Below, one piece after another: positions 6,531 through 32,342 of a stretch of 64,000 nt of DNA; the first letter of the stretch is position 1; each line of letters opens with the position of its first letter. The notes under the pieces are model-generated. The model had not been told where the DNA came from, did no database searches, and worked only from the letters and a program-made list of their open reading frames with translations. The stretch covers positions 372,001 through 436,000 of the forward strand of contig NZ_AUFX01000005.1 in the NCBI RefSeq assembly GCF_000426725.1, read 5' to 3'. The translations under genes and the position numbers were made by a program. The DNA is from Sporocytophaga myxococcoides DSM 11118 (GTDB taxonomy: Bacteria; Bacteroidota; Bacteroidia; Cytophagales; Cytophagaceae).

Positions 6531-6588
6531 TATAGTATTGCTTGGCAGTAATATTCGATGTTAAGTGTCTTGTTAATTTAAATTATAG

Positions 6589-12634: not shown

Positions 12635-12644
12635 ATTAGAAATT

Positions 12645-14021
12645 ATGAAAATCAGATATATAAGTCTTTTGCTGTTTGCTGTATTATTTTCATTCAATAG
12701 CACATCAGCTCAGGTAAAGAAGAACAATACTCCTAATATTATACTCATCCTTGCAGATGATATGGGGAAGGAATGTCTTGGTACTTACGGTGGTACTTAT
12801 AAAACTCCCAATCTCGACAAGCTTGCCTCTGAAGGTTTGAAATTCAATTATGGATTTTCTCAGCCACTTTGCACACCTTCAAGAGTGCAGATCATGACAG
12901 GAAAGTATAACTATAAAAATTATGTTGAATTCGGATATCTTGATCCTAATCAAAAGACATTTGCACATCTTGCTAAAGATGCAGGCTACAAGACCTGTAT
13001 TGCTGGCAAATGGCAATTAGGAGCAAACAATAAGCTGCCAGCTCATTTTGGTTTTGATCAGTATTGTTTATGGCAGCTTGTGTATTCCAGAGAGCAGGGA
13101 GAGCGTTATGCAAAGCCTCTGATAGAGCAGGATGGAAAGACATTAAGTTCTACAGACAATGATTATGGTCCTGATATCTTCACAAACTATGTACTTGATT
13201 TCATTGAAAAGAACAAGGATAATAAATTTCTCGCATATTATCCGATGGCTTTAGTGCACGATCCTTTTTTACCTACTCCAGATAGTAAAAGTTGGAAGAC
13301 AGGGGTTGAAGAGAGACATAAAAGAGATACAGCCAACTTCAGAGACATGGTTGCCTATATGGATAAGAATGTCGGTCAGATCATTAAGAAGCTTAAAGAT
13401 CTTGGTATTTATGAAAATACTGTCATCATTTTTACAGGAGACAATGGTACTGGCAAATCTGTGGTAACACAGCTGAAGGATGGTTCTTATATTAAAGGAG
13501 GAAAAGGTCTTACGATAGACAGAGGGCATCATGTTCCGCTAATTGTTAACTATGGCTCTAATAGGTACAAGGTTCACCAGACAGATGACCTTGTTGATTT
13601 TACAGATATTCTGGCAACCATTAGTGATGCTGTTCAGGTTAAAGTGCCGGTTGAATGGAATACGGATGGAAACAGCATTTTCTCTCAAATAAAAGGAGAG
13701 AAGGGAAATTCTCGTCAATGGATATTTTCTCATTATACTCCAATACATTCAAAAGATGCCGACAAACACTCAGCAAGATTCTTTCGCAATCATAGATATA
13801 AGCTATACCATGATGGTAGGTTTTATGATCTTGTAAAAGATATTGAGGAAACACAATCTATCGCTGAGGGTCAGGGAAGTCCTGAGGCTGAAGCTGCGAG
13901 AAAATTATTTAAGGCAGAGTTTGCAAAACTTCCTGCCTGGAATTTTGGTGATCCTGGACAACCTAAATATGTATTGCCTGGTCTAGAATCGCAGAGAACT
14001 TCTGAGGTTAAAGGTGAATGA
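12645..14021 (+). CDS. S1-family sulfatase 2, exported
   Basis: A 458-residue sulfatase. The ATG at 12645 gives a clean signal peptide (MKIRYISLLLFAVLFSF, cleavage near SAQ). A further in-frame ATG at 12618 would overlap sulfatase 1 and spoil the signal, so it is rejected. The formylglycine motif is C76-T-P-S-R; metal-site motifs ILADDMG and FTGDNGTGKS are present, and the GKW element is again GKWQLG. It closes the first transcription unit and is followed by a strong terminator. Substrate unknown. Confidence 0.9.
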   Translation: MKIRYISLLLFAVLFSFNSTSAQVKKNNTPNIILILADDMGKECLGTYGGTYKTPNLDKLASEGLKFNYGFSQPLCTPSRVQIMTGKYNYKNYVEFGYLDPNQKTFAHLAKDAGYKTCIAGKWQLGANNKLPAHFGFDQYCLWQLVYSREQGERYAKPLIEQDGKTLSSTDNDYGPDIFTNYVLDFIEKNKDNKFLAYYPMALVHDPFLPTPDSKSWKTGVEERHKRDTANFRDMVAYMDKNVGQIIKKLKDLGIYENTVIIFTGDNGTGKSVVTQLKDGSYIKGGKGLTIDRGHHVPLIVNYGSNRYKVHQTDDLVDFTDILATISDAVQVKVPVEWNTDGNSIFSQIKGEKGNSRQWIFSHYTPIHSKDADKHSARFFRNHRYKLYHDGRFYDLVKDIEETQSIAEGQGSPEAEAARKLFKAEFAKLPAWNFGDPGQPKYVLPGLESQRTSEVKGE

Positions 14022-14149: not shown

Positions 14150-14179
14150 TTGTCAATGCTATTAAGTTATTTATATTTG
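14150..14179 (+). promoter_or_regulatory. Bacteroidota-type promoter for the second susCD operon
   Basis: TTG at 14150-14152, a 19-nt spacer and TATATTTG at 14172-14179, an exact TAnnTTTG match. The start site would be near 14186, about 50 nt before the susC ATG. The spacing is the family optimum, making this the best promoter call in the locus. Confidence 0.6.
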
Positions 14180-14235
14180 TATACCTATCCGATAGACTTT
14201 ATATAATAAAGAATTAATTATTAAAAAACAGCCGA

Positions 14236-17200
14236 ATGAAAAAACGCTATACCACTTTTAATTTAAAGTATCTATTATTAGCCTTCTCCTTAATCCTGAT
14301 AGCACAGGGTGTAGCGGTAGCGCAAACAGTAATTAAAGGACGAGTTGTGGATGATAAAACTGCAGAGCCTGCAGTGGGAGCCGTAATTCAGATTAAGGGA
14401 ACTAAAGAAGGTACTATTACAGACATAGATGGAAATTATGAATTAAAGACTGAGCATTCTTATCCATTTACGTTGGTGCTTCAATATTCTGGTTATGAAC
14501 CCAAAGAAGTTGAAATTTATGAGGCACCTGAAGAAGATTTAAATATCCAATTAAAGAGTCGTCAATTACTTAACGAAGTAGTGGTGGTAGGTTACGGAAC
14601 ACAAAAGAGAAGTGATTTGACAGGGTCTGTTGCTACTGTTCCTGTTGAAAGCCTCAAACAACCTGTTAGTTCTGTAGAGCGTCTGTTGCAAGGATCAGTT
14701 GCAGGTGTTCAGGTAACTCAGTCTACCGGACAGCCAGGAGGTGGAACTTCAGTCCAGATACGAGGGAACAACTCAATTACTGCAGGTACAGAACCTCTCT
14801 ATGTTATCGATGGTTTCCCAATCTATAATGACAATGCCAGTAACGATGCAGGTGTAACCAATGGATCCAAGATAAATCCTTTATCAACTATTAATACTTC
14901 AGATATTGAATCCATTGATGTGCTTAAAGATGCTTCTGCTACTGCCATATATGGTTCAAGAGGAGCAAATGGTGTTGTAATTGTAACAACAAAAAAAGGA
15001 AGCTATAATAATTCTTCTATCAACTATGACGGATATGTAGGAGTACAAAGTGTAGTAAGAACAATTCCTTTGATGAATGCTAAAGAATGGGGTGCATTGA
15101 GAAATGATGCTTTGGTGAATTCAGGTAAGTCTCCTCAGTATTCTGCAGCCCAACTAGACAGTTTGGGTGAAGGTACAGACTGGCAAGACGCAGCCTTCAG
15201 AAAGGCTATCATTCATAATCACAATCTTTCTGTGCTTACTGGTAATGATAAAACAAGAGTTGCAATTTCAGGTAACTATTTTAAACAGGATGGTGTCTTA
15301 ATAAACACAGACTTTGAAAGATACTCCGGAAGGTTAAACCTTGATCATGAATATAGCAACAGATTAAGAATCGGTTCATATATCACAGCAAGCCAGATTT
15401 CATCCAATGTTGCGCCTCAGGCTGTTGTTCCTGCTTTATTATTGATGTCTCCAGCTGTTCCTATCTATAATTCAGATGGTTCATTCGTATTAAGAAATCT
15501 TTTTGAAGGTGTATACGGAAACCCGATTAACACACTTAAGAACCAGATAAATGAAACTAAAACGGGACGTTTCCTTGGTAACGTTTCAGCGGAATATAAG
15601 ATCTTTGAAGGTCTTTCTTTTAAAGTACTTGCAGGTGCCGATGTACTTGATAACAAACAAAACAGATATTTACCAGCAAGTGTATATGAAGGCTCTGGTT
15701 TTGGTGGATTAGCTCAGGTTGGATCTATATTCTCCACAAACTGGTTGAATGAAAATACTTTAAACTATACAAGGAAGTTTAGAAATGCACATAACCTTAA
15801 TGTTCTTGCTGGTTTTACTCAGCAGCAATCAGAAACTAAGGGATCTGTTTCCGGATCAAGTGGATATGCAACTGATGCATTTGAATATAACAATCAGCAG
15901 GCAGGTAATGTAACATCCATCAATGCAAGTGGATTTGCACCATCACCTTCTTCATTTGCAAGCGCATGGGCTTTGAGATCGTTTCTGGGAAGGGTTAATT
16001 ATGGTTTTAAAGATAGATATTTATTGACAGTATCTCTGAGAGCGGATGGTTCTTCTAAGTTTGCTCCAGGACATAAATGGGGATATTTCCCATCTGCTGC
16101 TATTGCATGGAATGCAAGCAATGAGGAGTTCCTTTCACAGGTTAAAAATCTTGGACATTTGAAATTCAGATTGAGCGCTGGACTTATTGGTAACCAACAG
16201 ATCCCAGCATATCAATCATTTTCGCAGTTATCATACTTCAGATATAACTTTGGAAATAACACAGTTTCTGGTTTTGCACCAAACTCAATTGCTAACCCAA
16301 ATCTGACTTGGGAAAAAACTGCCCAGTATGATTTGGGAGCTGACCTTGGCATATTAAAAAACAGAGTTGTAATAGCTGCTGATATCTATTATAAAAAGAC
16401 AACAGATCTATTGTTGAACGTACCTCTTCCATCCACATCAGGACTTTGGAATATTGTAGTAGTAAATGGATCACTTTCTACACCTAATCCTCAAGTGTAT
16501 CAAAACTATGGTGCTGTAGAAAATAAAGGTTTTGAACTTGCTGTTTCTACAAAAAATCTGGTAGGTAAATTCCAGTGGAGCACAAGTCTAGTCTATGCTG
16601 TAAACAGAAACAAAGTATTAAGTTTAGGTAATGGAATTGATCAGATCATTCCTAATAGTGCGTTACCTTCTATTGCAGCAGTTGGAAAGCCAATCGGGTC
16701 TTTTATTGTTTATCAGACTGACGGTGTAATACCTGTAGGTACATCTCCAGATAAAGCATTGACACCTGCTGCTAACAAGAATCCTGGTGGTCAGCAATAT
16801 AAAGATATCAATGGTGATGGAAAAATTACTCAGTCTGGTGACAGAGTGATTATTTCTAACCAACCTAAGTTTATTGCTGGTTTGACCAACAACTTCAGTT
16901 ATCGCAATTTTGACTTAAGTATATTTTTACAAACATCTTACGGAAACAAGCTATATAATCAAAACAGAGCAACTCTTGAACTTGGTACAGGCTATACTGG
17001 TGCTTCTACAACTCTTTTGAACAGATGGACTCCAACAAATACCAATACAGACGTTCATAGTGCATATCAGGACCCTGCTGCTACAATATCTGACAGATTT
17101 ATAGAAGATGCTTCTTATATAAGACTTAAGAATCTGACATTCGGATATACATTCCCTGAGAGTCTTGTAAATAAGGCGAAGATTAAGAACATCAGAGTGT

Positions 17201-17355
17201 ATGTGTCATTACAGAACTATCTGACATTGACAAAATATACAGGTTATGATCCTGAGGTTAGCAGTAACGGTCAGTCTGCTATTGATCAGGGGGTAGACAA
17301 TGGTGCTTATCCGAATAGTAAGACATTCCTCGGAGGCCTTTCATTCTCCTTTTAA
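14236..17355 (+). CDS. SusC/RagA-type TonB-dependent outer-membrane transporter (second copy)
   Basis: A 1039-residue outer-membrane transporter, paralogue of the first SusC. Signal peptide ending near AVAQ (residue 30), regulatory-like domain (GRVVDDKTAEPAVGAVIQI), plug motifs VVVGYGTQKRSDLTGSV, PLYVIDGFP and DASATAIYGSRGANGV, then the barrel. By direct reading I find only two internal Met and no Cys in the mature chain of about 1010 residues, an extreme depletion of sulfur amino acids. It works with the SusD encoded 32 nt downstream. Ligand unknown; the following genes again encode sulfatases. Confidence 0.93.
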   Translation: MKKRYTTFNLKYLLLAFSLILIAQGVAVAQTVIKGRVVDDKTAEPAVGAVIQIKGTKEGTITDIDGNYELKTEHSYPFTLVLQYSGYEPKEVEIYEAPEEDLNIQLKSRQLLNEVVVVGYGTQKRSDLTGSVATVPVESLKQPVSSVERLLQGSVAGVQVTQSTGQPGGGTSVQIRGNNSITAGTEPLYVIDGFPIYNDNASNDAGVTNGSKINPLSTINTSDIESIDVLKDASATAIYGSRGANGVVIVTTKKGSYNNSSINYDGYVGVQSVVRTIPLMNAKEWGALRNDALVNSGKSPQYSAAQLDSLGEGTDWQDAAFRKAIIHNHNLSVLTGNDKTRVAISGNYFKQDGVLINTDFERYSGRLNLDHEYSNRLRIGSYITASQISSNVAPQAVVPALLLMSPAVPIYNSDGSFVLRNLFEGVYGNPINTLKNQINETKTGRFLGNVSAEYKIFEGLSFKVLAGADVLDNKQNRYLPASVYEGSGFGGLAQVGSIFSTNWLNENTLNYTRKFRNAHNLNVLAGFTQQQSETKGSVSGSSGYATDAFEYNNQQAGNVTSINASGFAPSPSSFASAWALRSFLGRVNYGFKDRYLLTVSLRADGSSKFAPGHKWGYFPSAAIAWNASNEEFLSQVKNLGHLKFRLSAGLIGNQQIPAYQSFSQLSYFRYNFGNNTVSGFAPNSIANPNLTWEKTAQYDLGADLGILKNRVVIAADIYYKKTTDLLLNVPLPSTSGLWNIVVVNGSLSTPNPQVYQNYGAVENKGFELAVSTKNLVGKFQWSTSLVYAVNRNKVLSLGNGIDQIIPNSALPSIAAVGKPIGSFIVYQTDGVIPVGTSPDKALTPAANKNPGGQQYKDINGDGKITQSGDRVIISNQPKFIAGLTNNFSYRNFDLSIFLQTSYGNKLYNQNRATLELGTGYTGASTTLLNRWTPTNTNTDVHSAYQDPAATISDRFIEDASYIRLKNLTFGYTFPESLVNKAKIKNIRVYVSLQNYLTLTKYTGYDPEVSSNGQSAIDQGVDNGAYPNSKTFLGGLSFSF

Positions 17356-17387
17356 TAATCAGAATACCAATTAAAATCACCAACGAA

Positions 17388-18932
17388 ATGAAGAAGTCGA
17401 TATATATATTATTAGGATTTGCAATAACTGTTTTTTCCTGTGCTAAACTGGAAGAGGAACCAGAGTCCTTTATGGCTGCCAATGATTATTATAAAACTCA
17501 GGCAGATGCCATCACCGCAGTAAACTCTATTTATTTCCTTTTGAACGCAGGAGGTAACGCTGTTCAGACTCCATACAATACTTTGTTTAATACAGGTATG
17601 AACTTTATGGGTGATGATGAAAATCCGGGACCCGGAGCAACTAATCCGGATGTAAGATCTCAATCTGTTCTTGGTCATGCATCTACAGGACTACGTGTTT
17701 TGCAGATCTGGCAACAACATTATTCTGGTATCAAAAAAGCAAATATTGCTATTGAAAAGATTCCAGGAATTGATTTTGGATCAAATACTAAGCTCAGAGA
17801 AAGACTTATAGGAGAAGCTAAGTTCCTCAGAGCTCTGTATTATTTCAACCTTGTAAGACTTTATGGCGGAGTACCTTTGATATTGAAGGATCTTGCTACT
17901 CTTGAAGAAGCACATTCACAACCTAAAAGAAATACGGTTGAAGAAGTCTATGCACAGATTGAAAAAGATCTTATAGAAGCTGCAACTGTCCTTGATCCAA
18001 CAGCTGGAGGAGCTGATGCCGGGCGGGCGACAGCGGGGGCTGCAAAAGCTCTGTTGGCAAAAGTTTATCTGACTGAAAGGAAGTGGGAAAGTGCTATCGC
18101 TAAAGCTAACGAAGTTATCAATGGCCCTTATGGCTATAACCTTGTTCAGAACTATGCAGAAGTTTTCCTTCCGGTTTATAAAAATGGTCCGGAGCATATT
18201 TTCTCAGCTCAGTTTAAATCTGTTTCTCAGGGGCAGGGAAATAACCAGGCTCCAAGATCAGTGCTAACAGGTATTCCGGGAATTGTAGGTTCTTATGCAG
18301 ATCAGGTAGTGTTTTATTCTGTTCCTGATGCAACTAAACCAGGAGGAGTAGATAAGTTTTTCAGTGTATATAAACTATACTCTAAAAAGGATAAGAGACG
18401 TGATGTGACCTTTGTAACAAGGTTCAAAAGTCCTACCAACGGAAAGTTTTATGGCAAGTTAAATGATCCTGCTATCCCTGGTGACTCTGTTCCATTCTTT
18501 AACAAATATTGGGATCCTGCAAGTATTTCAAATCTTTCGGAGTCCGGTGCCAATGTACCTATCATAAGATTCTCAGAAGTTCTGCTGATTCTTGCTGAAG
18601 CTGAAAATGAATTGAATGGACCATCTGGTATTGCATATACCAATATCAATAAGGTTAGGAAAAGAGCTGGATTGGATAACCTGACTGAAGGCTTAGGACA
18701 GCATCAATTTAGAGACTCACTTTATCTTGAAAGAAGACTTGAATTTGTTTTTGAATATCAGAGATGGTTTGATCTTATTAGAGAAAGAGATGCAGCGGGT
18801 AATGGAATTCTTGAATCCAGCATGAGAAAAGTTGGGAAGAACAATGTTGCTCCGAAACATTATTTGTTCCCAATTCCTCAGCAGGAGATTGATCTTAATC
18901 CAAATCTTGAACAAAATCCTGGATGGTTGTAG
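17388..18932 (+). CDS. SusD/RagB-type nutrient-binding lipoprotein (second copy)
   Basis: Surface lipoprotein of 514 residues, partner of the preceding SusC. Lipobox-like TVFSC near residue 19, N-terminal motifs KTQADAITAVNSIY and GEAKFLRALYYFNLVRLYGG, C-terminal YLERRLEFVFEYQRWFDLIR and HYLFPIPQQEIDLNP. The two SusD proteins share these blocks but differ in the middle, so the two pairs may bind different ligands. Apart from the lipobox residue I see no Cys and only four internal Met. Confidence 0.93.
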   Translation: MKKSIYILLGFAITVFSCAKLEEEPESFMAANDYYKTQADAITAVNSIYFLLNAGGNAVQTPYNTLFNTGMNFMGDDENPGPGATNPDVRSQSVLGHASTGLRVLQIWQQHYSGIKKANIAIEKIPGIDFGSNTKLRERLIGEAKFLRALYYFNLVRLYGGVPLILKDLATLEEAHSQPKRNTVEEVYAQIEKDLIEAATVLDPTAGGADAGRATAGAAKALLAKVYLTERKWESAIAKANEVINGPYGYNLVQNYAEVFLPVYKNGPEHIFSAQFKSVSQGQGNNQAPRSVLTGIPGIVGSYADQVVFYSVPDATKPGGVDKFFSVYKLYSKKDKRRDVTFVTRFKSPTNGKFYGKLNDPAIPGDSVPFFNKYWDPASISNLSESGANVPIIRFSEVLLILAEAENELNGPSGIAYTNINKVRKRAGLDNLTEGLGQHQFRDSLYLERRLEFVFEYQRWFDLIRERDAAGNGILESSMRKVGKNNVAPKHYLFPIPQQEIDLNPNLEQNPGWL

Positions 18933-18972
18933 TAGACCCACAATTCATAATACATAGCCTTAAACTATAAAG

Positions 18973-21312
18973 ATGAAAAAGAAATTCTTGGAGCATAATA
19001 CTAAATCTGTAATCAAGCCTGTATTGTCAGGCTTGATTATTAATTTACTGATACCTGTTATTTCCTTTGCTCAACATGATCCTGTAAAGCCATTTACAGG
19101 TAAAATCGGAAATACACTCGAAGGTACGAAGCAGGTTTGGCCTGAAAGAGTGAAGGCTCCTAAGGGTGCTCCTAATGTAGTATGGATACTCCTCGATGAT
19201 GTAGGCTTTGGTGCTACATCAGCTTTTGGTGGACTTATTGAAACTCCTACCTTTGAATATCTTGCCAGTAATGGTTTAAGATATACAAACTTTCACACTA
19301 CTGGCTTATGTAGTCCAACAAGAGCTTCTTTACTGACCGGCAGAAACTCTCATTCTGTAGGAATGGGACATCATGCTGAACTAGGAATCGGAACACCAGG
19401 ATACAATGGTGATATTCCTTTTGAAGCAGGAACTGTTGCAGAGATCTTTAAAGAAAATGGTTACAATACATTTGCGCTTGGAAAATGGCACGGACAGGTT
19501 TCTAAAGATCAAACTGTTTCAGGCCCATTTAACAGATGGCCTACGGGCAGAGGATTTGAGCATTTCTATGGTTTTCTTGGTGGTGCAACAGACCAATGGC
19601 ATCCAACTCTTGTAGAAGAGAATAATTTTATAGATATAGAGCCTAATACCAAACATCTGAATCAGCTTTTGGCAGATAAGGCGATAGCATATATTGCAAA
19701 TCAAAAATCGGCCAATCCTGATAAACCATTCTTTCTTTACTTAGCTCCGGGAGCAACTCATTCACCTCACCAGGTAGCCAAAGAATGGAGTGATAAATAC
19801 AAAGGCAAGTTTGATAAAGGCTGGGATGCATATCGTGAAGCTGTATATAAAAGACAAAAAGATTTAGGCTATATTTCTAAAAATGCAACCTTACCTCCAA
19901 GACAAAATGGAATCAAAGCCTGGAATTCTTTAACTCCTGAAGAACAAAAGGTATTCGCTCGTTTTATTGAGGTTTATGCAGGATTTTTATCTTATACTGA
20001 TTATGAAATCGGACGAGTAGTAAATTACCTGAAGCAGATAGACCAGCTTGATAACACTGCTATATTTCTTGTAATTGGTGACAATGGAGGAAGCAAAGAA
20101 GGTACATATACTGGAACACTTGGGACTGCTGATAAATCAAAAGGAGATGATATATCTTTTCTTTCAGCCAGCATGGATAAAATAGGAACAGAGCTTACTT
20201 CGCCTAATTATCCATTAGGTTGGTCACAGGCAATGAATACTCCATTCAGATATTGGAAAAGCGATGCCAATTCCGAAGGAGGGACACACAATCCTTTGAT
20301 AGTACATTATCCTAAAGGTATCAAGGGAAAAGGTGTTATCAGGCCTCAGTATGGGCATGTAACTGATATTCTTCCTACCACTATTGAACTGGCAGGAATT
20401 AAAGTACCTGAAGTGATCAATGGTTATAAACAATTACCATTTCATGGGACCGCCTTTAATCATACTTTTGAAAATGATCAGGCTGATACCAAACATACTG
20501 TACAGTATTTTGAATTACATGGTGGAAGATCCATTTATAAAGATGGATGGAAAGCTTCTGTATATCATCCAAGAAATACATTTGGCGAAAGCGGCAATAC
20601 AGACCCTAACTTTAGTCCTCGTCCTTTTTCTGAAGATAAATGGGAACTCTATAACCTTATAGATGACCCTACTGAAATAAAAGATCTTGCAGCTAAATAT
20701 CCTGATAAGCTTAATGAATTGAAAGCATTGTTTGATGCGGAAGCAAGAAAAAATAATGTATACCCATTACGAGACTATAGAGCTGGTGTACCAGAGCCAG
20801 AAGTGAGAAAGAAATCTGTGATTTTTCAGGGAACAACTGACAAAACAAAAGTGAATATAGGTAAGGAAGCATTGCAGATTACAGTGAGTGTGGAAATACC
20901 AAATGAAGTACCACAAGGTGTTGTGTTTGCTAGCGGCGGTTTTACTGGAGGAAATGCACTTTACTTCCTGAATGGAAAACTTCATTATACTTTAAATGAC
21001 GGAGTAAAAGAAATCACTTTAATATCTGAAAAACAGCTGCCTCCTGGAAAAGCTACTATCAGAATTGAATATCCTGATCTTACCTCAGTTTCAGTTTATA
21101 TAAATAATGAAAAGGTGGGAAGTCAGAATTTCAAATCAAGGAATAGTTATCTCAGCTCTGCTTCAGGTGAAGGAATCAGCGTGGGAAAGGATCTCAATGT
21201 CCCTGTAACGAAAAATTATAAAGCACCTGCACCATTTAATGGCTTGGTTTCAAAGATTGTCATTGATCAGGCTGTCGAAGAAGTTTCTGCAAATGAAGAA
21301 AAGGACAAATAA
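18973..21312 (+). CDS. S1-family sulfatase 3, large arylsulfatase type, exported
   Basis: A 779-residue arylsulfatase with an N-terminal signal segment ending near ISFAQ (residue 34). The formylglycine motif is C113-S-P-T-R, with LLDDVGFG and IGDNGGSKEG as metal-site motifs and an intact GKWHGQ. The last ~150 residues form an added beta-rich domain (LHYTLN, VSVYINNEKV), as in the long arylsulfatases. It is a close paralogue of sulfatase 4 (24584-26956). Besides the catalytic Cys there are no other cysteines and only three internal Met. Gene lies 40 nt after susD, in the same transcript by spacing. Confidence 0.9.
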   Translation: MKKKFLEHNTKSVIKPVLSGLIINLLIPVISFAQHDPVKPFTGKIGNTLEGTKQVWPERVKAPKGAPNVVWILLDDVGFGATSAFGGLIETPTFEYLASNGLRYTNFHTTGLCSPTRASLLTGRNSHSVGMGHHAELGIGTPGYNGDIPFEAGTVAEIFKENGYNTFALGKWHGQVSKDQTVSGPFNRWPTGRGFEHFYGFLGGATDQWHPTLVEENNFIDIEPNTKHLNQLLADKAIAYIANQKSANPDKPFFLYLAPGATHSPHQVAKEWSDKYKGKFDKGWDAYREAVYKRQKDLGYISKNATLPPRQNGIKAWNSLTPEEQKVFARFIEVYAGFLSYTDYEIGRVVNYLKQIDQLDNTAIFLVIGDNGGSKEGTYTGTLGTADKSKGDDISFLSASMDKIGTELTSPNYPLGWSQAMNTPFRYWKSDANSEGGTHNPLIVHYPKGIKGKGVIRPQYGHVTDILPTTIELAGIKVPEVINGYKQLPFHGTAFNHTFENDQADTKHTVQYFELHGGRSIYKDGWKASVYHPRNTFGESGNTDPNFSPRPFSEDKWELYNLIDDPTEIKDLAAKYPDKLNELKALFDAEARKNNVYPLRDYRAGVPEPEVRKKSVIFQGTTDKTKVNIGKEALQITVSVEIPNEVPQGVVFASGGFTGGNALYFLNGKLHYTLNDGVKEITLISEKQLPPGKATIRIEYPDLTSVSVYINNEKVGSQNFKSRNSYLSSASGEGISVGKDLNVPVTKNYKAPAPFNGLVSKIVIDQAVEEVSANEEKDK

Positions 21313-21331
21313 TCAAAATAGAAATTTATTG

Positions 21332-23779
21332 ATGAATTATAGAATTTTGTTGCTTTTGATTCTTACCTTCTGGGCTGCTGACATATATGGTCAATCAGCC
21401 ATTAAGGGAAGAATCATTGATTCATTAAACAGCAAACCCGTAGAGTTTTGTAATGCTACTATTTATAATAGCGCTGGTAATGCATTGTTGGATGGTCGGC
21501 TAACAGATAGCACCGGCTTATTTGAATTTAAAAATCTTAAGGCAGGACTTTATTATATTAAAATTGAGTCGATCGGATTTAAATCTAAAACTATTCAAAA
21601 TGTCTCAGTTGATAAGTCTACAGCAACTAATCTTGGAGATATTTTAATTGAAGAAGATGAAGCTTCTCTAAAAGAAATTATAGTTAACGGTCAACAGCAA
21701 AATCCTTTCAAACAGGTTTACAAAGCAAATCAGTTTGAAGCTGCAAAAGGAGGAACTGCTATTGATGTTTTAAAGAACATGCCTTCCATAAGTGTTAATG
21801 CAGAAGGCGATATAAGGCTAAGAGGTTCCTTAGGTTTTTTGATTCTTGTTAATGAAAAACCTGTTCAAAGCGATTTGAAAACAGTGTTAAGCCAAATTCC
21901 TGCTAATGCAATTGAGAACATAGAAATAATAACATCTCCTTCTGCTAAATATGATGCAGATGGTAAAGCTGGCATTATCAACATCACTACCAAAAAAGGC
22001 ATGGATGATGGAATATCTTTCACTACCAATATTCAATACGGATTACCAAGTGTAAATGATTTTTCCAATAAAGAGAAACCTACCAGATATGGAATCGATG
22101 GAACTTTAAACTACAAAAAAGGAAAATGGGATTTGTCTGTGGGGGGAAGTTATCAGGAGAATGATATTGCAGGAAGGAGAGAAGGTGATGTAAATACCAC
22201 CATTGATAATAGATACACATACTTTCCATCTGTGGGAGAAAGAAGTTTCCAAAGATCTAATTATTCAGCAAGAGCATTGGTTGCTTATTCCCTTAATGAA
22301 AATAATTCATTTAATGTGGGCTTTTATACAGGCCAAAAGGTACAATACAGAAGAGCAGATATTACCTATCATAACACTAAATGGGATGTTAATACGGAAC
22401 AGCCCTTAAGCAGTATTGATTATTTTAATTCAAACCTTGTAAAGAAACAAGGGAATTTCTCTCTGGCAAATATTGATTACTCTCATAAGTTTAAGAATAA
22501 GTCAGTATTGACTTTTTCAGGACTTTATGAGTACGCTGTTCTTGACGGCTATACAAAGAATCTTAATACCGGAATCAATAATCATGCTGATACATTGGAT
22601 TATGTTCTTAATACAGGAAACAGTCCAATCAGTGGTTTAAGAGGAAAAGTTGATTATAGCATCAATATCGGAAAAGGTAAACTGGAGTCAGGCTATCAGG
22701 CAAGATTTCAAAGACAAACAGGAGCTTACCTTTATAAAAATGCAATACTTGGAACTGGTCAGTATAGTGTAGTACCTGAATTCAGTGCTGATATAAAAGT
22801 GCTCAATTACATCCATAGCTTATATACTCAATATTCGGGTAAGACTGATAAGTTAAGTTATGTTGCCGGACTTCGTTATGAGTATTCTTTTCGTGAATTT
22901 AATGCCGATAAAATCACAGAACCTTATAAGCTAGACTTGTCAAGCTTATTTCCTTCCCTTAATCTAGTTTATGCTCTTAATACCAGTTTAAGAGCAAAGG
23001 GAGGTTTTAGTCGAAGAGTACAACGATCCACCAGTAATGAGTTGAACCCATATCCTGAGCGAGAGCACTCTGAAACTCTTGAACAAGGAGATCCTAGAAT
23101 CCTTCCTGAGTTTGTAAATCTATCTGAGATTGGCCTTGTAAAGGATTTGAAGAATGCAGGCTCAGTATTTATTACTGTTTATAATCAGGATATAAAGAAT
23201 GTTGTAAACAGGGTAAATAGCGCATACAATGATACTATTCTGAACAGGATTTATACCAACGCCGGAAGAGCCTATTTATGGGGCATAGAAAGTGGGATAA
23301 ATATTAAGCCAGTAAAGTGGTGGTCAGCATATCTGAGTGGGAATATCTACAATTACAGGATAAAAGGAAAGCTATTTAGTAATACTGTGGAGGTGAGAAA
23401 TTCAGCGATTGCTTACTCTATCAATACTAATCACAATTTTCAGTTTAGTAAAACCGTGTCTTTGCAGTTTAATTTAAACTATTTATCAGAAAGACCTACG
23501 GCGCAGGGCGAAGATTCAAGATTCATAAGTCCGAATCTGTCATTAAAAAAAACTTTTCTGGAAGGCAGGCTTTCAGCTTCATTACAATGGCAAAATATTG
23601 GCCTTGGTGCTATCAAGTCTAATGAACAGAGGATAACTACAAGAGGAGTTAATTTCTATACAACAACTAATTACATACAGGAAAAAGATGTATTTCTGAT
23701 CAACATCAGTTATAGTCTTTCTCAAGCATCTAAGAAGGTGAAGTTACCTTCAAGTGAATTTGGAGAAAAAGAATTTTAA
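21332..23779 (+). CDS. TonB-dependent receptor, non-SusC type
   Basis: An outer-membrane receptor of 815 residues. The ATG at 21332 gives a proper signal peptide (MNYRILLLLILTFWAADIYG); an open frame from 21239 overlaps sulfatase 3 and lacks one. A regulatory-like domain (IKGRIIDSLNSKPVEF) is followed by a plug (IDVLKNMPSISV, IEIITSPSAKYDADGKAGI) and a long barrel typical of the outer-membrane beta-barrel family without the SusC signature. No SusD partner follows, so it may import a small ligand such as a desulfated product, a metal or a cofactor on its own. One Cys and two internal Met only. Confidence 0.85.
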   Translation: MNYRILLLLILTFWAADIYGQSAIKGRIIDSLNSKPVEFCNATIYNSAGNALLDGRLTDSTGLFEFKNLKAGLYYIKIESIGFKSKTIQNVSVDKSTATNLGDILIEEDEASLKEIIVNGQQQNPFKQVYKANQFEAAKGGTAIDVLKNMPSISVNAEGDIRLRGSLGFLILVNEKPVQSDLKTVLSQIPANAIENIEIITSPSAKYDADGKAGIINITTKKGMDDGISFTTNIQYGLPSVNDFSNKEKPTRYGIDGTLNYKKGKWDLSVGGSYQENDIAGRREGDVNTTIDNRYTYFPSVGERSFQRSNYSARALVAYSLNENNSFNVGFYTGQKVQYRRADITYHNTKWDVNTEQPLSSIDYFNSNLVKKQGNFSLANIDYSHKFKNKSVLTFSGLYEYAVLDGYTKNLNTGINNHADTLDYVLNTGNSPISGLRGKVDYSINIGKGKLESGYQARFQRQTGAYLYKNAILGTGQYSVVPEFSADIKVLNYIHSLYTQYSGKTDKLSYVAGLRYEYSFREFNADKITEPYKLDLSSLFPSLNLVYALNTSLRAKGGFSRRVQRSTSNELNPYPEREHSETLEQGDPRILPEFVNLSEIGLVKDLKNAGSVFITVYNQDIKNVVNRVNSAYNDTILNRIYTNAGRAYLWGIESGINIKPVKWWSAYLSGNIYNYRIKGKLFSNTVEVRNSAIAYSINTNHNFQFSKTVSLQFNLNYLSERPTAQGEDSRFISPNLSLKKTFLEGRLSASLQWQNIGLGAIKSNEQRITTRGVNFYTTTNYIQEKDVFLINISYSLSQASKKVKLPSSEFGEKEF

Positions 23780-23796
23780 CACATAAAATATAAGCT

Positions 23797-24540
23797 ATGA
23801 AAAACAAGATCAGATTAGTACTCACATTTGCGATTGCCATTTTATCCTTAGGTTATTTAAATGCTCAGGACAACAAGAAAGATCAAAGTCTTACGCTGGC
23901 TGAATTTGAGAGTAAGCTTTATAAAGAGGGCGCAAAAGCTCAGATTATTGATGCTCGTTCACTTGAAGAGTACCAGCAAAATCACTTAGTTGGAGCAATC
24001 AGTCTGAATGCATCTGATGATGCTGAGTTTCAGAAGCAGGTAGTTCGATTAAAAAAAGATAAGCCTGTTTTTGTTTATTCAATTGGAAATGGAAGAAGTA
24101 ATGCACTTAAAAAGAAACTTCAAGCAAATGGATTTTCAGAAGTGTATGAATTGCCGGGAGGCTTTAGCAACTGGGTAGGTTCCGGGAAGAAAGTGGTTAG
24201 TAGCACATCTAATGGACTTACTCTAGATGAATATAAAAAACTGATTAAATCGGATAATCTTGTACTTGTTGATATAGGATCAAAATATTGCGGAGCATGT
24301 AAAAGGCTTGCACCTATTGTAGATTCTGTTGCCGGAAATCATCCTAAAGATCTTAAAGTAGTTAAAATAGAGTTTTTTGAAAATAAACAACTTGGTGTGG
24401 ATCTCAATATAAATTCTTTACCGACTTTGATTTTATATAAAGATGATAAAATAGTTTGGCAAAAAAATGGAGTATCTTCTAAAGATCAGATAGAGAAAGA
24501 GATCCTTTCGGCTCAAACTAAATCAGCTTCTCTGAAATAA
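23797..24540 (+). CDS. Secreted rhodanese-like / thioredoxin-like fusion
   Basis: A 247-residue protein with a signal peptide (cleavage near LNAQ, residue 24), so periplasmic or beyond. Residues ~30-130 form a rhodanese fold (IIDARSLEEYQQNHLVGAISL, then LPGGFSNWVGSG), but the active-site loop reads YSIGNGRS, where the catalytic Cys is replaced by Ser. The C-terminal half is a thioredoxin domain with C165-G-A-C168 in KYCGACKRLAP and a cis-Pro region SLPTLILY. The dead rhodanese domain may only bind a partner, leaving the thioredoxin as the redox-active part. It lies between a TonB receptor and sulfatase 4; a role as reductant for the locus FGE or for sulfatases is inference. Confidence 0.85.
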   Translation: MKNKIRLVLTFAIAILSLGYLNAQDNKKDQSLTLAEFESKLYKEGAKAQIIDARSLEEYQQNHLVGAISLNASDDAEFQKQVVRLKKDKPVFVYSIGNGRSNALKKKLQANGFSEVYELPGGFSNWVGSGKKVVSSTSNGLTLDEYKKLIKSDNLVLVDIGSKYCGACKRLAPIVDSVAGNHPKDLKVVKIEFFENKQLGVDLNINSLPTLILYKDDKIVWQKNGVSSKDQIEKEILSAQTKSASLK

Positions 24541-24583
24541 GAAGGATCTGATAATTGTTTTAATAATTTAACTATAGTATTAA

Positions 24584-26956
24584 ATGAGTAACCACCTTAA
24601 AACGAAAGGAGCTGCATTATTTGCAACTCTTTTTTTATCTCTGCCTTCTTTTGCTCAATACAGCCCGGAACAGAAGTTTGAAGGAGAGATAGGGAAGACT
24701 ATATCAGAGTCAGTACCATACAAAATTCAATTTAATAAAAAAGCTTCACCAGATGCGCCTAATATAGTATGGATCTTAATTGACGATGCAGGATTCGGAG
24801 CTACAACGCCTTTCGGAGGTTTGGTTGAAACTCCCAATATTGAAAGGATTGCCAATAACGGTCTGAGATTTACTAATTTTCACACTACTGCAATTTGTTC
24901 TCCAACAAGAGCTGCATTGCTTACCGGTAGAAATCATCACTCAGTGCATGTTGGTTTGTTAACACCTGCAGCAGTTGACTTTCCAGGCTATGATACGCGT
25001 ATCCCATTTGAGAAAGCTACAGTAGCTGAAATACTTAGAGAGAATGGATACAATACTTTTGCTTTAGGTAAATGGCATTTGACACCTGTTGTTGAAAATT
25101 CTCAGGCTGGTCCATTTAACAGGTGGCCTACTGGTAGAGGTTTTGATCACTTTTATGGATTTCACCCTGGAGCTACTGATCAGTGGCATCCTGAGCTTTG
25201 GGAAGATCAGACAAAGCTTAGTATAGAGCCCAATACCAAGCATTTAAATGAGTTGTTGGCAGATAAAGCAATTAAATACATTGCTAATCAGAAGTCATCA
25301 AATCCTGAAAAACCTTTCTTCCTTTATTTAGCAACTGGTGCTACGCATTCTCCGCATCAGGTTGCTAAAGAGTGGATAGATAAATATAAAGGCAAGTTTG
25401 ATCTTGGATGGGACGAGTATAGAAAGGTAGTAATTGAAAGACAAAAGAAACTAGGCATCATTCCTGCCAACACTGTTCTACCTGACCGTAATCCTAATGT
25501 AAAGGCCTGGAAAGAATTGTCTGAAAAAGAGAAGAAAGCTTTTGCTCATTTCATGGAAGTGTATGCGGCATTTTATTCTTATACTGATTATGAAATAGGT
25601 AGAATAGTCAACTACCTGGAACAAATAGATCAGTTAGATAATACTTTGATAGCAATAGTACTGGGAGATAACGGAGCCAGCAAAGGTGGAACTCAGACAG
25701 GAACTGTCAATTCTCAAATCAATAGATTGAAAGGTGAAGAACATATTGATGCTATATTAAATGCCCGTGATATTATTGGTACTGATGAATCAAGTACTGA
25801 CTATCCTATCGGCTGGGCAATGGCTGCGAACACTCCTTTCAGATATTGGAAGGCAGATGCTAATACTGAAGGAGGTACACGTAATCCCCTTATCATTTCT
25901 TATCCGAAAGTTATTAAAGATAAAGGTGGTATCAGGCATCAGTACGGGCATGTTATTGATGTATTGCCTACGACCTTAGAGTTAGCGAAAGCAGAAGTTC
26001 CAGAGGTGATAAACGGTTACAGGCAGAAAGCTGTAGAAGGTGTGAGTCTTGCATATTCTGTTGAAAATGCTAAAGCTGCTTCTCGTCATACTGTTCAATA
26101 TTATGAAATTGCCGGATCCAGATCTATATACAAAGATGGCTGGAAAGCCGGTGCTCATCATGAGATAGGACAGACAATTGATATAGGTGAAGGTGCTGAT
26201 GCTTCAGGACGTAAAGTTGATTTTAGTAAAGATGTTTGGGAATTGTATAATCTGAACGAAGATTTTAATGAGAGAATCAATCTAGCCTCGAAATATCCTG
26301 AAAAGTTAAAGGAATTACAGGCTCTGTTTGATGAAGAAGCGAAGAAATACAATGTATTCCCTTTAAAAGATTTTACAGTACATAACATGCCTGCAGGCAG
26401 AAGTATATATGGGAAATCATCTGTAGTTACCTTGTATCCTGGAGTTGACCATCTTGTAGGGGTTAGCAATCCTTTATATGAAGGTAAATCATTCAGTGTT
26501 AAAGCTGAGGTTGAATTGGTAACAGGTAAAGAAGAAGGAGTTTTATTTTCTCTTGGAGGTGAAAAAGCTGGTATAAGCCTTTTCATAAAAGAAGGTAAGG
26601 TGCAGTTTGCACATAAATCTCTCAGCCAGACAATCCACCTTGTTTCGGATAAACCTCTTCCAAAAGGAAAATCAGTTTTCAGATTTGATTACAATCTTAA
26701 TGGAGTAGATGCTAACGGAAACGCTGGAACAGAAGCTCTTTATATCAATAATGAAAAAATTTCTGAAAGAAGTTTTACTAAAAAAGAAGCAGCAGTTTTT
26801 GCCGGAAGTAAAGTTGATGGTACTGATGTCGGAAGAGATTTGATTGCTGCAGTATCAGACAGATATCAAGTGCCATTTGAGTTTAATGGAAAGTTGAAAA
26901 AGGTTGTCATTGAATTTGTGCAGAAGGATAAGATAACGATTAGTGAAGATAAATAA
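24584..26956 (+). CDS. S1-family sulfatase 4, large arylsulfatase type, exported
   Basis: A 790-residue arylsulfatase, paralogue of sulfatase 3. Signal peptide ends near LPSFAQ (residue 25). Formylglycine motif C105-S-P-T-R, metal-site motifs LIDDAGFG and LGDNGASKGG, and GKWHLTP are present. A C-terminal beta-rich extension with EALYINNEKIS matches that of sulfatase 3. The catalytic Cys is the only Cys, with about three internal Met. The repeated architecture suggests local duplication followed by specialisation on different sulfate esters. Confidence 0.9.
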   Translation: MSNHLKTKGAALFATLFLSLPSFAQYSPEQKFEGEIGKTISESVPYKIQFNKKASPDAPNIVWILIDDAGFGATTPFGGLVETPNIERIANNGLRFTNFHTTAICSPTRAALLTGRNHHSVHVGLLTPAAVDFPGYDTRIPFEKATVAEILRENGYNTFALGKWHLTPVVENSQAGPFNRWPTGRGFDHFYGFHPGATDQWHPELWEDQTKLSIEPNTKHLNELLADKAIKYIANQKSSNPEKPFFLYLATGATHSPHQVAKEWIDKYKGKFDLGWDEYRKVVIERQKKLGIIPANTVLPDRNPNVKAWKELSEKEKKAFAHFMEVYAAFYSYTDYEIGRIVNYLEQIDQLDNTLIAIVLGDNGASKGGTQTGTVNSQINRLKGEEHIDAILNARDIIGTDESSTDYPIGWAMAANTPFRYWKADANTEGGTRNPLIISYPKVIKDKGGIRHQYGHVIDVLPTTLELAKAEVPEVINGYRQKAVEGVSLAYSVENAKAASRHTVQYYEIAGSRSIYKDGWKAGAHHEIGQTIDIGEGADASGRKVDFSKDVWELYNLNEDFNERINLASKYPEKLKELQALFDEEAKKYNVFPLKDFTVHNMPAGRSIYGKSSVVTLYPGVDHLVGVSNPLYEGKSFSVKAEVELVTGKEEGVLFSLGGEKAGISLFIKEGKVQFAHKSLSQTIHLVSDKPLPKGKSVFRFDYNLNGVDANGNAGTEALYINNEKISERSFTKKEAAVFAGSKVDGTDVGRDLIAAVSDRYQVPFEFNGKLKKVVIEFVQKDKITISEDK

Positions 26957-27096: not shown

Positions 27097-28560
27097 ATGA
27101 AATTTAAAAGAGTATTACCACCACATTCAATGATCAAAAGGATTCTTCTTGTGGTTATAAGCACATTTATTCTCGGAACTGTCTCAGCAACTGCTCCTCC
27201 AGATAAAACCAAAGCAAATAAAAAATATAATGTTCTATTCATAGCGGTTGATGATCTTAATAATGATTTAGGTTGTTATGGAAACACTTTTGTAAAGTCT
27301 CCTAATATCGACAGGCTTGCAGCAAGGGGTGTTAGATTCGATAAAGCTTATACCCAATTTCCTCTATGCAGTCCAAGCAGGTCGTCTTTGCTTACTGGAA
27401 CAAGGCCTGATGTAACAGGTATCTATGAATTACAAACACATTTCCGTAAAAATCTTCCAGATGTTGTCACTCTGCCTCAATTATTTAAAAATAATAATTA
27501 TTTCAGTGCACGTGTAGGAAAGATATATCATTATGGAGTGCCGAATCAGATAGGAACAAATGGACTTGATGATTCTATCTCATGGACCATAAGGGTTAAT
27601 CCGATTGGCAGAGATAAAGCTGAAGAAGCATTGATAAAAAATCTTACACCAGACAGACACTTAGGAAGTGCTTTGTGCTGGAGGGCGACTGAAGGAACAG
27701 ATGAAGAACAAACAGATGGTTTAATTGCAACTGAGGCTATTAAAATCATGGAAGAAAAAAAGAATGAACCTTTCTTTCTTGCTGTAGGATTTTTCAGACC
27801 GCACACTCCATATGTTGCACCTCAAAAGTACTTTGATTTGTATGATGAGAACAAAGTGCCTTTAGCTAAAGAAAAAGAAAATGATCTTGCGGATGTTCCG
27901 GAAGCTGCTTTATTTACCAAGCCTTCTCATTGGGGACTTGATGAGCAAAAGAGAAGAGAAGCCCAAAAGGCGTATTACGCAACTGTATCATTTATGGATG
28001 CTCAGGTTGGAAGACTTCTTGATGCATTGGATCGGTTGAAATTATCTGAAAATACCATTATCGTTTTATGGAGTGATCATGGTTATAATCTTGGTCAGCA
28101 TGGCCAGTGGATGAAGCAAAGTCTTTTCGAAAACTCAGCAAGAGTTCCATTAATCATATCTGTTCCAGGGCAAGGAGGGAAAGCTTCAGCAAGAACAGTA
28201 GAGCTTCTGGATATCTATCCTACACTTGCAGAATTATGCGGACTTCCTGCTCCGAAATACCTACAGGGAAAGAGTCTTACAGCATTGTTAAAGAACCCTG
28301 CCGCAGCTTGGGATAAACCAGCTTTCACTCAGGTTAAAAGAAAAGACTTTATGGGAAGAAGTATCTGTACAGAAAAATGGAGGTATACAGAGTGGGATGA
28401 AGGTAAAGCCGGTATTGAGCTATATGATCATCAGAAAGATAAAGATGAATTTACAAATCTTGCGAATGACCCTAAATATTCTGAAACGGTAAAGGAGCTT
28501 TCAGCCAGATTAAAGAAAAATTATGCAGCCAATACATCTGAAGTAATCATAAAAGAATAA
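27097..28560 (+). CDS. S1-family sulfatase 5, iduronate-2-sulfatase-like, exported
   Basis: A 487-residue sulfatase whose pattern resembles iduronate-2-sulfatase and related enzymes: NVLFIAVDDLNNDLGCYG, KSPNIDRLAARGVRF, formylglycine motif C91-S-P-S-R, GKIYH in place of GKWH, FFRPHTPYVAPQKYFDLY and LWSDHGYNLGQHGQW. A second ATG at 27130 would give a tighter signal peptide (MIKRILLVVISTFILG), so the start is uncertain by 11 residues. It is followed by a small secreted protein gene at 10 nt spacing. Resemblance to glycosaminoglycan sulfatases does not prove that substrate. Confidence 0.88.
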   Translation: MKFKRVLPPHSMIKRILLVVISTFILGTVSATAPPDKTKANKKYNVLFIAVDDLNNDLGCYGNTFVKSPNIDRLAARGVRFDKAYTQFPLCSPSRSSLLTGTRPDVTGIYELQTHFRKNLPDVVTLPQLFKNNNYFSARVGKIYHYGVPNQIGTNGLDDSISWTIRVNPIGRDKAEEALIKNLTPDRHLGSALCWRATEGTDEEQTDGLIATEAIKIMEEKKNEPFFLAVGFFRPHTPYVAPQKYFDLYDENKVPLAKEKENDLADVPEAALFTKPSHWGLDEQKRREAQKAYYATVSFMDAQVGRLLDALDRLKLSENTIIVLWSDHGYNLGQHGQWMKQSLFENSARVPLIISVPGQGGKASARTVELLDIYPTLAELCGLPAPKYLQGKSLTALLKNPAAAWDKPAFTQVKRKDFMGRSICTEKWRYTEWDEGKAGIELYDHQKDKDEFTNLANDPKYSETVKELSARLKKNYAANTSEVIIKE

Positions 28561-28570: not shown

Positions 28571-29350
28571 ATGAAAAATACGAAGACCACCATTGTTGCG
28601 GGCATTGGTCTGCTTGCATTAATTTTTGCATTCAAAAATATTCCTGATCAAAAGGAATCAAAAGTAGCTTCAAAACAGAAACCTCAAAAAGCGACAGGTC
28701 AAAGTGCTTGTGAGGCAAAGAATGGAAGAGCTGCCTTGCTTGCTCATAAGGTTACATCATCAAAGTATGATTTAGGAAGTCTTTTGTCTAAAGGTGGACT
28801 AGTACCTGTTAATAGGGAAGTAGTTTCATCTGAAGATAAAAGTCACAGTGCTGTAAAGATCAAAGAGAAGGAAGGTGAAGGGGTAGTTTGGATAAAAGGA
28901 GTTAAATTTTCAAAAGGCACTATAGATGTGGATCTTAAAGGTAAAGACGTTTTACAGAAGAGCTTTATCGGAATTGCATTTCATGGAGCGGATGACAAAA
29001 CTTTTGATGGTATTTATTTCAGACCTTTTAATTTTAAAACTCCTGATTCTGTTCGGCATATTCATGCAGTTCAATATATAAGTCACCCAGATTTCCCATG
29101 GAAAAAACTAAGAGATGAAAAGAATGGACAATATGAAAAAGCCGTCACACCTGAGCCGGATCCTAATAACTGGTTTCATGCCAGAATCGAAGTGGGAGAT
29201 AAAGAGGTAAAGGTATATGTAAATAATGCGACTAAATCTTCTTTGGTGGTAAATAAATTGAATGACAGAAAAACAGGAACGATAGGTTTATGGACTGGTG
29301 AAGGTTCCGGAGGAGAATTTGCTAATCTGACCATTACTTCAAATGATTAA
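28571..29350 (+). CDS. Secreted LamG/DUF1080-like (concanavalin A-like) protein
   Basis: A 259-residue protein with an N-terminal hydrophobic segment (IVAGIGLLALIFAF) that should anchor or export it. Residues ~85-255 resemble the jelly-roll fold of LamG and DUF1080 (3-keto-disaccharide hydrolase-like) proteins: TIDVDLKGKD, SFIGIAFHGADD, DGIYFRPFNF, NNWFHARIEVGDKEVKVYV and TIGLWTGEGSGGEFANL. It may bind or process a carbohydrate released by the sulfatases. It sits between sulfatases 5 and 6 with gaps of 10 and 16 nt, so it belongs to the same operon. Catalytic function is not established. Confidence 0.7.
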   Translation: MKNTKTTIVAGIGLLALIFAFKNIPDQKESKVASKQKPQKATGQSACEAKNGRAALLAHKVTSSKYDLGSLLSKGGLVPVNREVVSSEDKSHSAVKIKEKEGEGVVWIKGVKFSKGTIDVDLKGKDVLQKSFIGIAFHGADDKTFDGIYFRPFNFKTPDSVRHIHAVQYISHPDFPWKKLRDEKNGQYEKAVTPEPDPNNWFHARIEVGDKEVKVYVNNATKSSLVVNKLNDRKTGTIGLWTGEGSGGEFANLTITSND

Positions 29351-30932: not shown

Positions 30933-31286
30933 CATTTCACAGATAATTCTAACTCTACTTTATTATAAGTACAAAGTCATGAATCTGAGAGGGAGAGTTT
31001 TAATAATGGTGTAACTCTCTGTGTATCTCTGTGGCTTCTCCGTGTTTCTTTGTGTAATTAATAATCGTGTCCTTGAATAAACTTTCAGTTAAACAAATTT
31101 AGGTGTATTGTAACCAACTATATTGTTTTTTACTTGGAAACTTAAAGTCTACTAATTTACTTTGTCTATAGAACTACTAGAGTATATAATGTTGTAAACT
31201 AATTATCTGTTTTCTAGCGTGTTGTAGTTTGTGGTAATTTATCCGAAAAGCAACATTCCTTTTATGAATCACCAAATATTATTATA
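30933..31286 (+). other. 354-bp intergenic gap with a degenerate repeat
   Basis: No gene is visible. Positions 31013-31055 hold a pyrimidine-rich tract with repeated CTCTGTG / TCTTTGTG units. A possible promoter is at 31134-31164. The gap suggests a transcriptional break before the FGE gene. Confidence 0.5.
31134..31164 (+). promoter_or_regulatory. Weak candidate promoter for the FGE-sulfatase 7 unit
   Basis: TTG at 31135, a 20-nt spacer and TTACTTTG at 31157-31164, one mismatch from TAnnTTTG. It would leave a leader of about 115 nt before the FGE ATG. Confidence 0.3.
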
Positions 31287-32324: not shown

Positions 32325-32342
32325 TCAATTAGTTTGTTAAAT

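Follow-up and report, generated by a model that had tools for sequence, protein, structure and literature searches.

Proteins with few methionine (Met) and cysteine (Cys) residues are known from organisms under sulfur limitation, among them phycobilisome isoforms of cyanobacteria, the sulfur-sparing isozymes of yeast, and sulfur-assimilation enzymes of E. coli and yeast. Here we describe such a composition in a sulfatase locus of Sporocytophaga myxococcoides DSM 11118, contained in a window of 64,000 nucleotides (C3:372001-436000 in our contig numbering) of its 6.34 Mb genome. The locus is like the known sulfur-sparing cases in that few Met and Cys residues are found in proteins that would be used when sulfur is short. 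It is unlike them in that the proteins concerned are SusC and TonB receptors and sulfatases of the Bacteroidota, that zero is reached in a family of 850-residue receptors, and that the depletion coincides with a common operator-like site.

The locus can also be set beside polysaccharide utilisation loci (PULs) that contain SusC/SusD pairs and S1 sulfatases, since SusC, SusD, sulfatases and a formylglycine-generating enzyme (FGE, the sulfatase activator) are encoded in one stretch. Unlike such PULs it has few glycan-active genes, its proteins are strongly depleted of Met and Cys, and the purpose that we propose for it is sulfur rather than carbon. A further point of comparison is the type 2A encapsulin SrpI system (Nichols 2021, PMC8049743); that paper reports that sulfur starvation induces the Synechococcus counterpart. 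As in that system, SrpI is encoded here with a cysteine desulfurase and an acetyltransferase-like gene. In this genome SrpI lies away from the window, and it is the SrpI of a Flavobacterium tyrosinilyticum locus (L119) that is linked to the operator-like site. None of the open-access papers listed in literature searches concerned Met/Cys-depleted SusC or TonB receptors. Sulfur-poor proteins are a known idea; the SusC/TonB/sulfatase machinery of Bacteroidota, together with a candidate operator and regulator, appears to be new.

Methionine and cysteine depletion in the sulfatase locus

The original prediction, made from the letters of the window, held that proteins of this locus contain extremely few Met and Cys residues, and its individual counts agree with ours (the initiator Met is excluded throughout). 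SusC2 (14236..17355, + strand, as are all genes of the locus) has two Met and no Cys in 1039 aa (0.19% Met+Cys), and SusC1 (6589..9615) has four Met, three of them past residue 30, and no Cys in 1008 aa (0.40%). Both are SusC/RagA proteins, scoring 881 and 929 bits, respectively, against TIGR04056 (E 1.7e-264 and 3.7e-279; cut-off 368) and lying above the cut-off for the TIGR04057 signature. The two long sulfatases at 18973..21312 (779 aa) and 24584..26956 (790 aa), each with the motif CSPTR, have three Met and one Cys apiece (0.51% in both), and sulfatase 10 (37101..38705, 534 aa, 0.56%) has one Met and two Cys, the Cys pair forming part of its CCASR motif. The TonB receptor with an OMP_b-brl_3 barrel (21239..23779) has 846 aa, four Met and one Cys (0.59%) when read from the first ATG at 21239; reading of its N-terminus shows that the predicted figure of two internal Met is recovered if the start is the ATG at 21332. 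The SufB-like protein that had been named as a contrast, with an estimate of about 20 (43989-45434), has ten Met and eight Cys in 481 aa. We conclude that the extreme Met/Cys depletion in this locus is confirmed. It is graded and not locus-wide: depletion holds for SusC1, SusC2, the TonB receptor and the two long sulfatases (0.19-0.59%), and does not extend to SusD1, FGE and several of the short sulfatases, which are ordinary.

These values were compared with 1224 open reading frames (ORFs) of at least 200 aa from 114 joined stretches of the genome (2.335 Mb of 6.34 Mb), a non-random sample in which some stretches surround sulfatases or TonB receptors and others are spread across the contigs. 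The median Met+Cys content of these ORFs is 2.63%, with the 5th percentile at 0.86% and the 1st at 0.39%. The genome has 28 matches to the sulfatase family PF00884, 36 Plug matches and four SusC proteins above the family cut-off. Among 38 TonB receptors, five have 0.00-0.59% Met+Cys and the remaining 33 have 1.07-3.68%; four of the five sit in sulfatase loci, and receptors of sulfatase loci (n=4) differ from the other 34 with p = 1.6e-4 (Mann-Whitney). A z-score for Met in the five would be circular, the group having been chosen on Met+Cys, and only their other residues are informative. The finding that the original prediction had named as speaking against it, equally poor SusC proteins from unrelated loci, was not obtained: C3:199086, the only one of the four SusC in an unrelated locus (the nearest sulfatase is 183 kb away), has 16 Met and 1.55% Met+Cys. 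Among the PF00884 proteins the content rises gradually, from 0.26% in C5:10935 and C7:200170 up to 3.9%, and a 780-aa member (C5:146010) is undepleted at 2.82%, indicating that neither length nor family forces depletion. With the exceptions given above, the locus proteins therefore lie far under same-genome members of their own families.

Depleted proteins are also encoded outside the window. SusC4 and SusD4 of a second sulfatase locus have 0.56% and 0.20% Met+Cys, and seven long sulfatases have 0.26-0.81%. Two pyridoxal phosphate (PLP) proteins of the Cys/Met-metabolism family PF01053, C3:97945 and C1:189985, have 0.25% and 0.51%; a relative that was sampled, C5:222685, has 3.5%. A protein resembling hexapeptide acetyltransferases (SAT-like), C1:300003, has 0.37%, against 3.36% in its relative C7:275463. 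The SAT-like gene lies directly behind those for the SrpI encapsulin (C1:297050-297967, 81% identical to the Flavobacterium one) and the cysteine desulfurase. A binding-protein-like (PBP-like) ORF, C3:561199, has 0.32%; no informative solved relative was found for it. For the LysR regulator C2:201151-202044 (L082:1151-2044; no Met after the start and one Cys in 298 aa), which scores near the selenium-metabolism and YeiE LysR models and under their cut-offs, and for the RND adaptor C20:36145 (0.28%), there is no good operator-like site, and depletion may be due to chance.

Two side observations concern these genes. The PLP protein C3:97945-99153 (- strand; L107:10945-12153) is of the OAH/OAS-sulfhydrylase family, has one Met and no Cys, and is preceded by an operator-like site that is among the strongest, with a score of 24.3. 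In alignment with FUB7, a Glu stands opposite the Lys of the FUB7 SATKW stretch, which we take to be the catalytic residue, and it is possible that the protein is a pseudoenzyme or a sensor. Separately, a membrane protein of the fatty-acid-hydroxylase family adjoins depleted SusC/SusD and sulfatase genes both in this genome (L060:13013-13924) and in Flavobacterium (L119:4252-5307).

Depleted receptors across the Bacteroidota

The TonB receptor at C19:772594-775143 (L077:6594-9143) has 850 aa and, beyond its start, neither Met nor Cys. Its family includes the loci L310-L329, and matches at E <= 1e-60 are present in 27 of 79 relatives, the own genome counted. The 20 members that were read (own included, one of them a fragment) contain 17 Met and one Cys in 16,931 residues, whereas the average composition of the other 33 receptors would predict about 269 Met. 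Each member has 0-3 Met and 0-1 Cys, ten of the 20 have none of either, and no alignment column outside the start region has Met in more than two members, at pairwise identities of 56-98%. In L314 the receptor gene is divergent to an arylsulfatase-like gene with an operator-like site between them, and in L320 it adjoins a PF03601 (YeiH-like) gene, a family also present in the SusC loci L119 and L181. SrpI occurs in eight of the 79 relatives and the zero-Met receptor is present in all eight, a co-occurrence that ignores kinship.

A profile built from the four SusC proteins was used to find loci in other Bacteroidota, and in the best 80 of 587 confirmed, named loci the Met+Cys content of SusC ranges from 0.00 to 2.66%. 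In a tree of 84 SusC sequences the nearest relatives of SusC1 and SusC2 come from Chitinophaga, Flavobacterium, a Tannerella metagenome-assembled genome (MAG) and a Sphingobacteriales MAG. They make up one clade with values of 0.10-0.49% throughout (SH-aLRT 99; six rows, representing at least three families). SusC4 lies apart from this clade on a long branch and its placement is unsure; a Hymenobacter pair with zero and one Met is also apart. The depletion is again specific within genomes. The focal SusC of F. tyrosinilyticum has 0.49% against a median of 1.45% in nine same-genome controls, of which only L274, the second SusC in that sulfatase locus, is lower (0.19%); that of Chitinophaga filiformis has 0.10% against 1.57% in ten controls, the lowest of which has 0.54%; and that of the Sphingobacteriales MAG 44-15, with 0.10% against a median of 1.36%, is lower than all ten of its controls. 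At ten alignment columns with Met in at least 15% of the 79 other SusC (initiator excluded), the depleted clade has mostly Leu, Ile or Val, although Met survives in five of seven depleted sequences at one column and in two at another.

Across 14 sulfatase loci, the Met+Cys content of SusC correlates with the mean of the sulfatases (rho 0.73, p = 0.003), with L121 and L145 combining low SusC (0.56 and 0.59%) with ordinary sulfatases. The presence of sulfatases alone proved a weak predictor of SusC depletion across the 80 loci (p = 0.04). As a separate observation, two Hymenobacter loci (L181:2234-13182 and L177:9989-20914) contain SusC/SusD genes with 0-3 Met, followed by two ORFs (without a Pfam match in L181), an FAD oxidoreductase and a YeiH-like gene, and are perhaps loci for the uptake of another sulfur source.

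An operator-like site and a candidate regulator

A near-palindrome, TCTAY-N7-RTAGA, precedes SusC1, SusC2, SusC4, the zero-Met receptor, one of the PLP proteins, the PBP-like gene and FGE, in several cases directly after a TAnnTTTG-like sequence that we presume to be the promoter box. The site was first spotted by eye in the upstream regions of 15 chosen genes and then in those of relatives. The main position weight matrix (PWM) was built on ten sites taken from other genomes, where they precede relatives of another gene. It was scanned over 835 operon heads, eight of which score at least 15: the PBP-like gene (27.8), the zero-Met receptor (26.7), the PLP protein C3:97945, SusC1 (21.3; 6517..6538, + strand, GTCTATTAACTTTGTATAGTAT), FGE (19.4; 31161..31182, - strand, a near-palindrome), SusC4 (16.3), SusC2 (a weak 15.2; 14179..14200, + strand) and C6:47556 (15.0), which has 1.82% Met+Cys and no evident sulfur role. 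With the zero-Met receptor left out, five of the 18 heads below 0.6% Met+Cys score at least 15, compared with two of 816 others (p = 5e-8), and five depleted heads among the top seven were reached by none of 500 column-shuffled PWMs and none of 20,000 label shuffles. A PWM made only from a footprint of four congeners ranks the zero-Met receptor, the PBP-like gene and SusC2 (18.6) first to third, FGE fifth and the PLP protein ninth.

A refined PWM applied to 1.71 Mb of the 80 SusC loci gave five sites above 17, two in L119, two in L135 and one in L168, and none elsewhere; the SusC of L135, L119 and L168 rank third, sixth and 16th lowest of the 80 in Met+Cys. The site in L168 precedes SusC; of the two in L119, one is about 440 bp ahead of SusC and the other precedes the SAT/SrpI/cysteine-desulfurase operon. 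Given the reported induction of the Synechococcus counterpart, the site before the encapsulin operon ties the operator-like site to sulfur independently of composition. In S. myxococcoides the best score upstream of SrpI is weak (9.3). We also observed that the acetyltransferase-like, SrpI and cysteine desulfurase genes of L119 (L119:16893-20711) adjoin SusC/SusD and sulfatase genes.

In eight relatives (G009, G010, G012, G015, G018, G019, G022 and G023) the match to the zero-Met receptor is preceded, at a distance of about 200-490 bp and on the same strand, by a gene of the Rrf2 family. Of the 27 genomes that have the receptor, 25 also have the Rrf2 gene, as do 15 of the 52 others (p = 3e-8, uncorrected for kinship), and its homologue in S. 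myxococcoides (C19:360146-360556, 52% identical) lies 412 kb from the receptor. TIGR00738 places the candidate in the Rrf2 superfamily (E 1.4e-34), as CymR and IscR are. Two of the proteins gave similar scores with the models for both regulators, 74.9 and 72.7 bits for CymR (NF047409, cut-off 195) and 80.3 and 71.6 bits for IscR (TIGR02010, cut-off 207.55), far below either cut-off. Both have four Cys, at 91, 100, 103 and 109, presumably the region in which Fe-S Rrf2 proteins carry their ligands. In this the candidate would differ from Bacillus subtilis CymR, which binds no Fe-S cluster according to PMC9338935. The same paper describes operators of three Rrf2 members with a central 7-bp region free of base-specific contacts, which fits the N7 spacer of the site. 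The operator would most likely be switched through a putative Rrf2 repressor with Fe-S-type cysteines. The LysR regulator C2:201151 was rejected as a general binder of the operator: none of the 15 genomes of the same family that lie outside the genus has a match to it at E <= 1e-60, although G009, G010 and G014 carry the site.

A proposed sulfur economy and competing explanations

We propose, with a probability of about 0.8, that the locus is part of a regulon for scavenging sulfate esters during sulfur starvation and that its proteins have been selected for sulfur economy. What is observed is the depletion itself, its specificity against same-genome family members, its recurrence in different genera and in separate families of proteins, the gene linkage, and the association with the operator-like site. 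Sulfur, and not mainly carbon, would be taken from sulfate esters when sulfur is scarce, at several loci of which the one in the window is the largest (10 of the 28 PF00884 matches of the genome): judging by family names, the SusC/SusD pairs and the TonB receptor would import organosulfates, secreted sulfatases matured by FGE would release sulfate, and the rhodanese-thioredoxin fusion may handle periplasmic sulfane sulfur. The genes would form a dispersed regulon switched by the palindromic operator next to the promoter, from which the candidate Rrf2 repressor would depart as sulfur shortage lowers the supply of Fe-S clusters. Because the products would be abundant and made while Met and Cys are limiting, selection would act to replace these residues, with the strongest effect on the biggest proteins, presumably also the most abundant, and the weakest on FGE and small enzymes. 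The sulfur-sparing explanation had already been raised in the original prediction, and it gains support from the same-genome SusC controls in three other genomes, the near-zero-Met receptor family, the PF01053 contrast, the operator-like site in common and the Flavobacterium linkage to the SrpI/cysteine-desulfurase encapsulin.

A carbon-type PUL for a sulfated glycan, of the ulvan, fucoidan or chondroitin type, is an unlikely alternative that the gene content partly favours. SusC/SusD pairs, ten sulfatases and a 3-keto-disaccharide-hydrolase-domain protein (28571..29350, 259 aa, no Met and one Cys) lie together, with an alpha-amylase gene (PF00128, E 3.7e-58) at 2643-4262, 2.3 kb before SusC1. 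SusC1 is followed by SusD1 (9687..11120, 477 aa, 1.89%) and sulfatases at 11201..12634 (477 aa, 1.47%) and 12618..14021 (467 aa, 2.14%). SusC2 is followed by SusD2 (17388..18932, 514 aa, 0.97%); the rhodanese-thioredoxin fusion (23797..24540, 247 aa, no Met and two Cys), which has a signal-like N-terminus and is also found in L119, lies between the TonB receptor and the second long sulfatase. Further sulfatases are at 27097..28560 (487 aa, 2.05%) and 29367..30932 (521 aa, 2.30%), and FGE (31287..32324, 345 aa, 2.90%; PF03781, E 5.8e-79) precedes those at 32334..33773 (479 aa from a TTG start, 1.88%), 34004..35398 (464 aa, 1.29%) and 35419..36888 (489 aa, 1.02%). Assignment to the type I sulfatases rests on PF00884, the C-x-P/A-x-R motif in nine of the ten (the exception being the gene at 32334, C3:404343) and the presence of FGE in the genome. 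Against a carbon PUL, Pfam found no glycoside hydrolase or polysaccharide lyase besides the 3-keto-disaccharide hydrolase domain in 20 window proteins (5604-38705 and 54510-56321), and in L140, L150, L162 and L171 both sulfatases and SusC are ordinary, showing that depletion is not general for sulfatase-bearing loci. Directly downstream, on the opposite strand, are genes read as SUF-type Fe-S assembly genes (38717-45434), which are not depleted. No Rfam family, and hence no riboswitch, matched at gathering threshold within the window.

Quite improbable, in our view, is a general economy unconnected with sulfur supply, by which abundant outer-membrane and secreted proteins are poor in Met and Cys because the cell does not get them back. 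Large exported-looking proteins with no evident sulfur role do occur among the Met/Cys-poor ORFs, so that export alone may lower the content somewhat, and all 38 TonB receptors have only 0-5 Cys. However, 33 of these receptors are equally exported and retain 1.07% or more, and the two PLP proteins and the SAT-like protein are depleted relative to their relatives while having no evident signal peptide.

Base composition, drift or horizontal transfer from donors of unusual composition is a very improbable cause. The Met+Cys content of SusC does fall as GC rises over the 80 loci (rho -0.29), and the GC-rich Hymenobacter SusC are low overall (medians 0.68 and 0.55%, with other SusC at 0.00 and 0.09%), which makes the Hymenobacter pair weaker evidence. 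The depleted window genes have a GC3 of 0.24-0.28, but undepleted sulfatases of the same stretch are similar in GC (0.38) and GC3 (0.26-0.31). Neither Trp nor Leu is lowered in the depleted receptors, the near-zero-Met state persists down to 56% identity within genomes of one order, and the contrast between loci with and without sulfatases is stronger below 50% GC (0.59 vs 1.55, p = 0.004). Avoidance of oxidation in exposed proteins, suggested by the signal-like N-termini on most of the strongly depleted proteins, is scarcely credible given that the 33 other receptors retain 4-25 Met, that proteins with no evident signal peptide are depleted too, and that it leaves the common site and the encapsulin link unexplained.

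Several observations, besides the alpha-amylase gene, the GC trend and the low Hymenobacter values, weigh against selection for sulfur economy. The depletion is graded, with the sulfatases at 12618, 27097 and 29367 at 2.05-2.30%, and SusD1 and FGE are ordinary despite their membership of the locus; FGE, one of the two undepleted heads scoring at least 15, carries the site yet is not depleted. The depleted receptors have less His, Phe and Lys as well, SusC at 0.5-0.9% occurs in loci lacking sulfatases too, and SrpI and the cysteine desulfurase are only mildly low (1.63% and 1.24% here, 1.31% and 1.09% in L119). The operator training set was picked for likeness from sites first seen by eye, and the four-congener PWM leaves both SusC1 and SusC4 outside its top 12. 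Of the depleted heads, 13 of 18 score below 15, including the long sulfatases C5:10935 (10.1) and C7:200170 (12.9) and the sulfatase at 37101 (0.2), and no site above 14 was found in L120, L154, L177 or L181, whose SusC are depleted. An intergenic site at C5:112379 (L061, score 20.2) has no depleted gene behind it and lies about 7 kb from SusC4.

A bolder form of the sulfur-economy proposal, which we put forward only tentatively and hold to be somewhat doubtful as a whole, is that Met/Cys content is a direct readout of a dispersed sulfur-starvation regulon of Bacteroidota. Such a regulon would span several orders, with its own operator and a cluster-sensing Fe-S-type Rrf2 repressor, and its hallmark would be the TonB receptor family purged of nearly all Met and Cys. 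By analogy with CysK for CymR, the C3:97945 protein, having lost the catalytic Lys, might perhaps serve as a sensor partner.

If the sulfur-economy reading is true, protein composition alone could tell sulfur-use from carbon-use sulfatase loci, a distinction that is otherwise hard to make and that matters for the sulfur cycle. Work on cultured species would have three definite things to test: an operator, a candidate regulator and a marker receptor. It would also show forcefully how the supply of a nutrient can shape protein sequence, in a conserved membrane receptor of 850 residues of which half of the members read are sulfur-free after the start.

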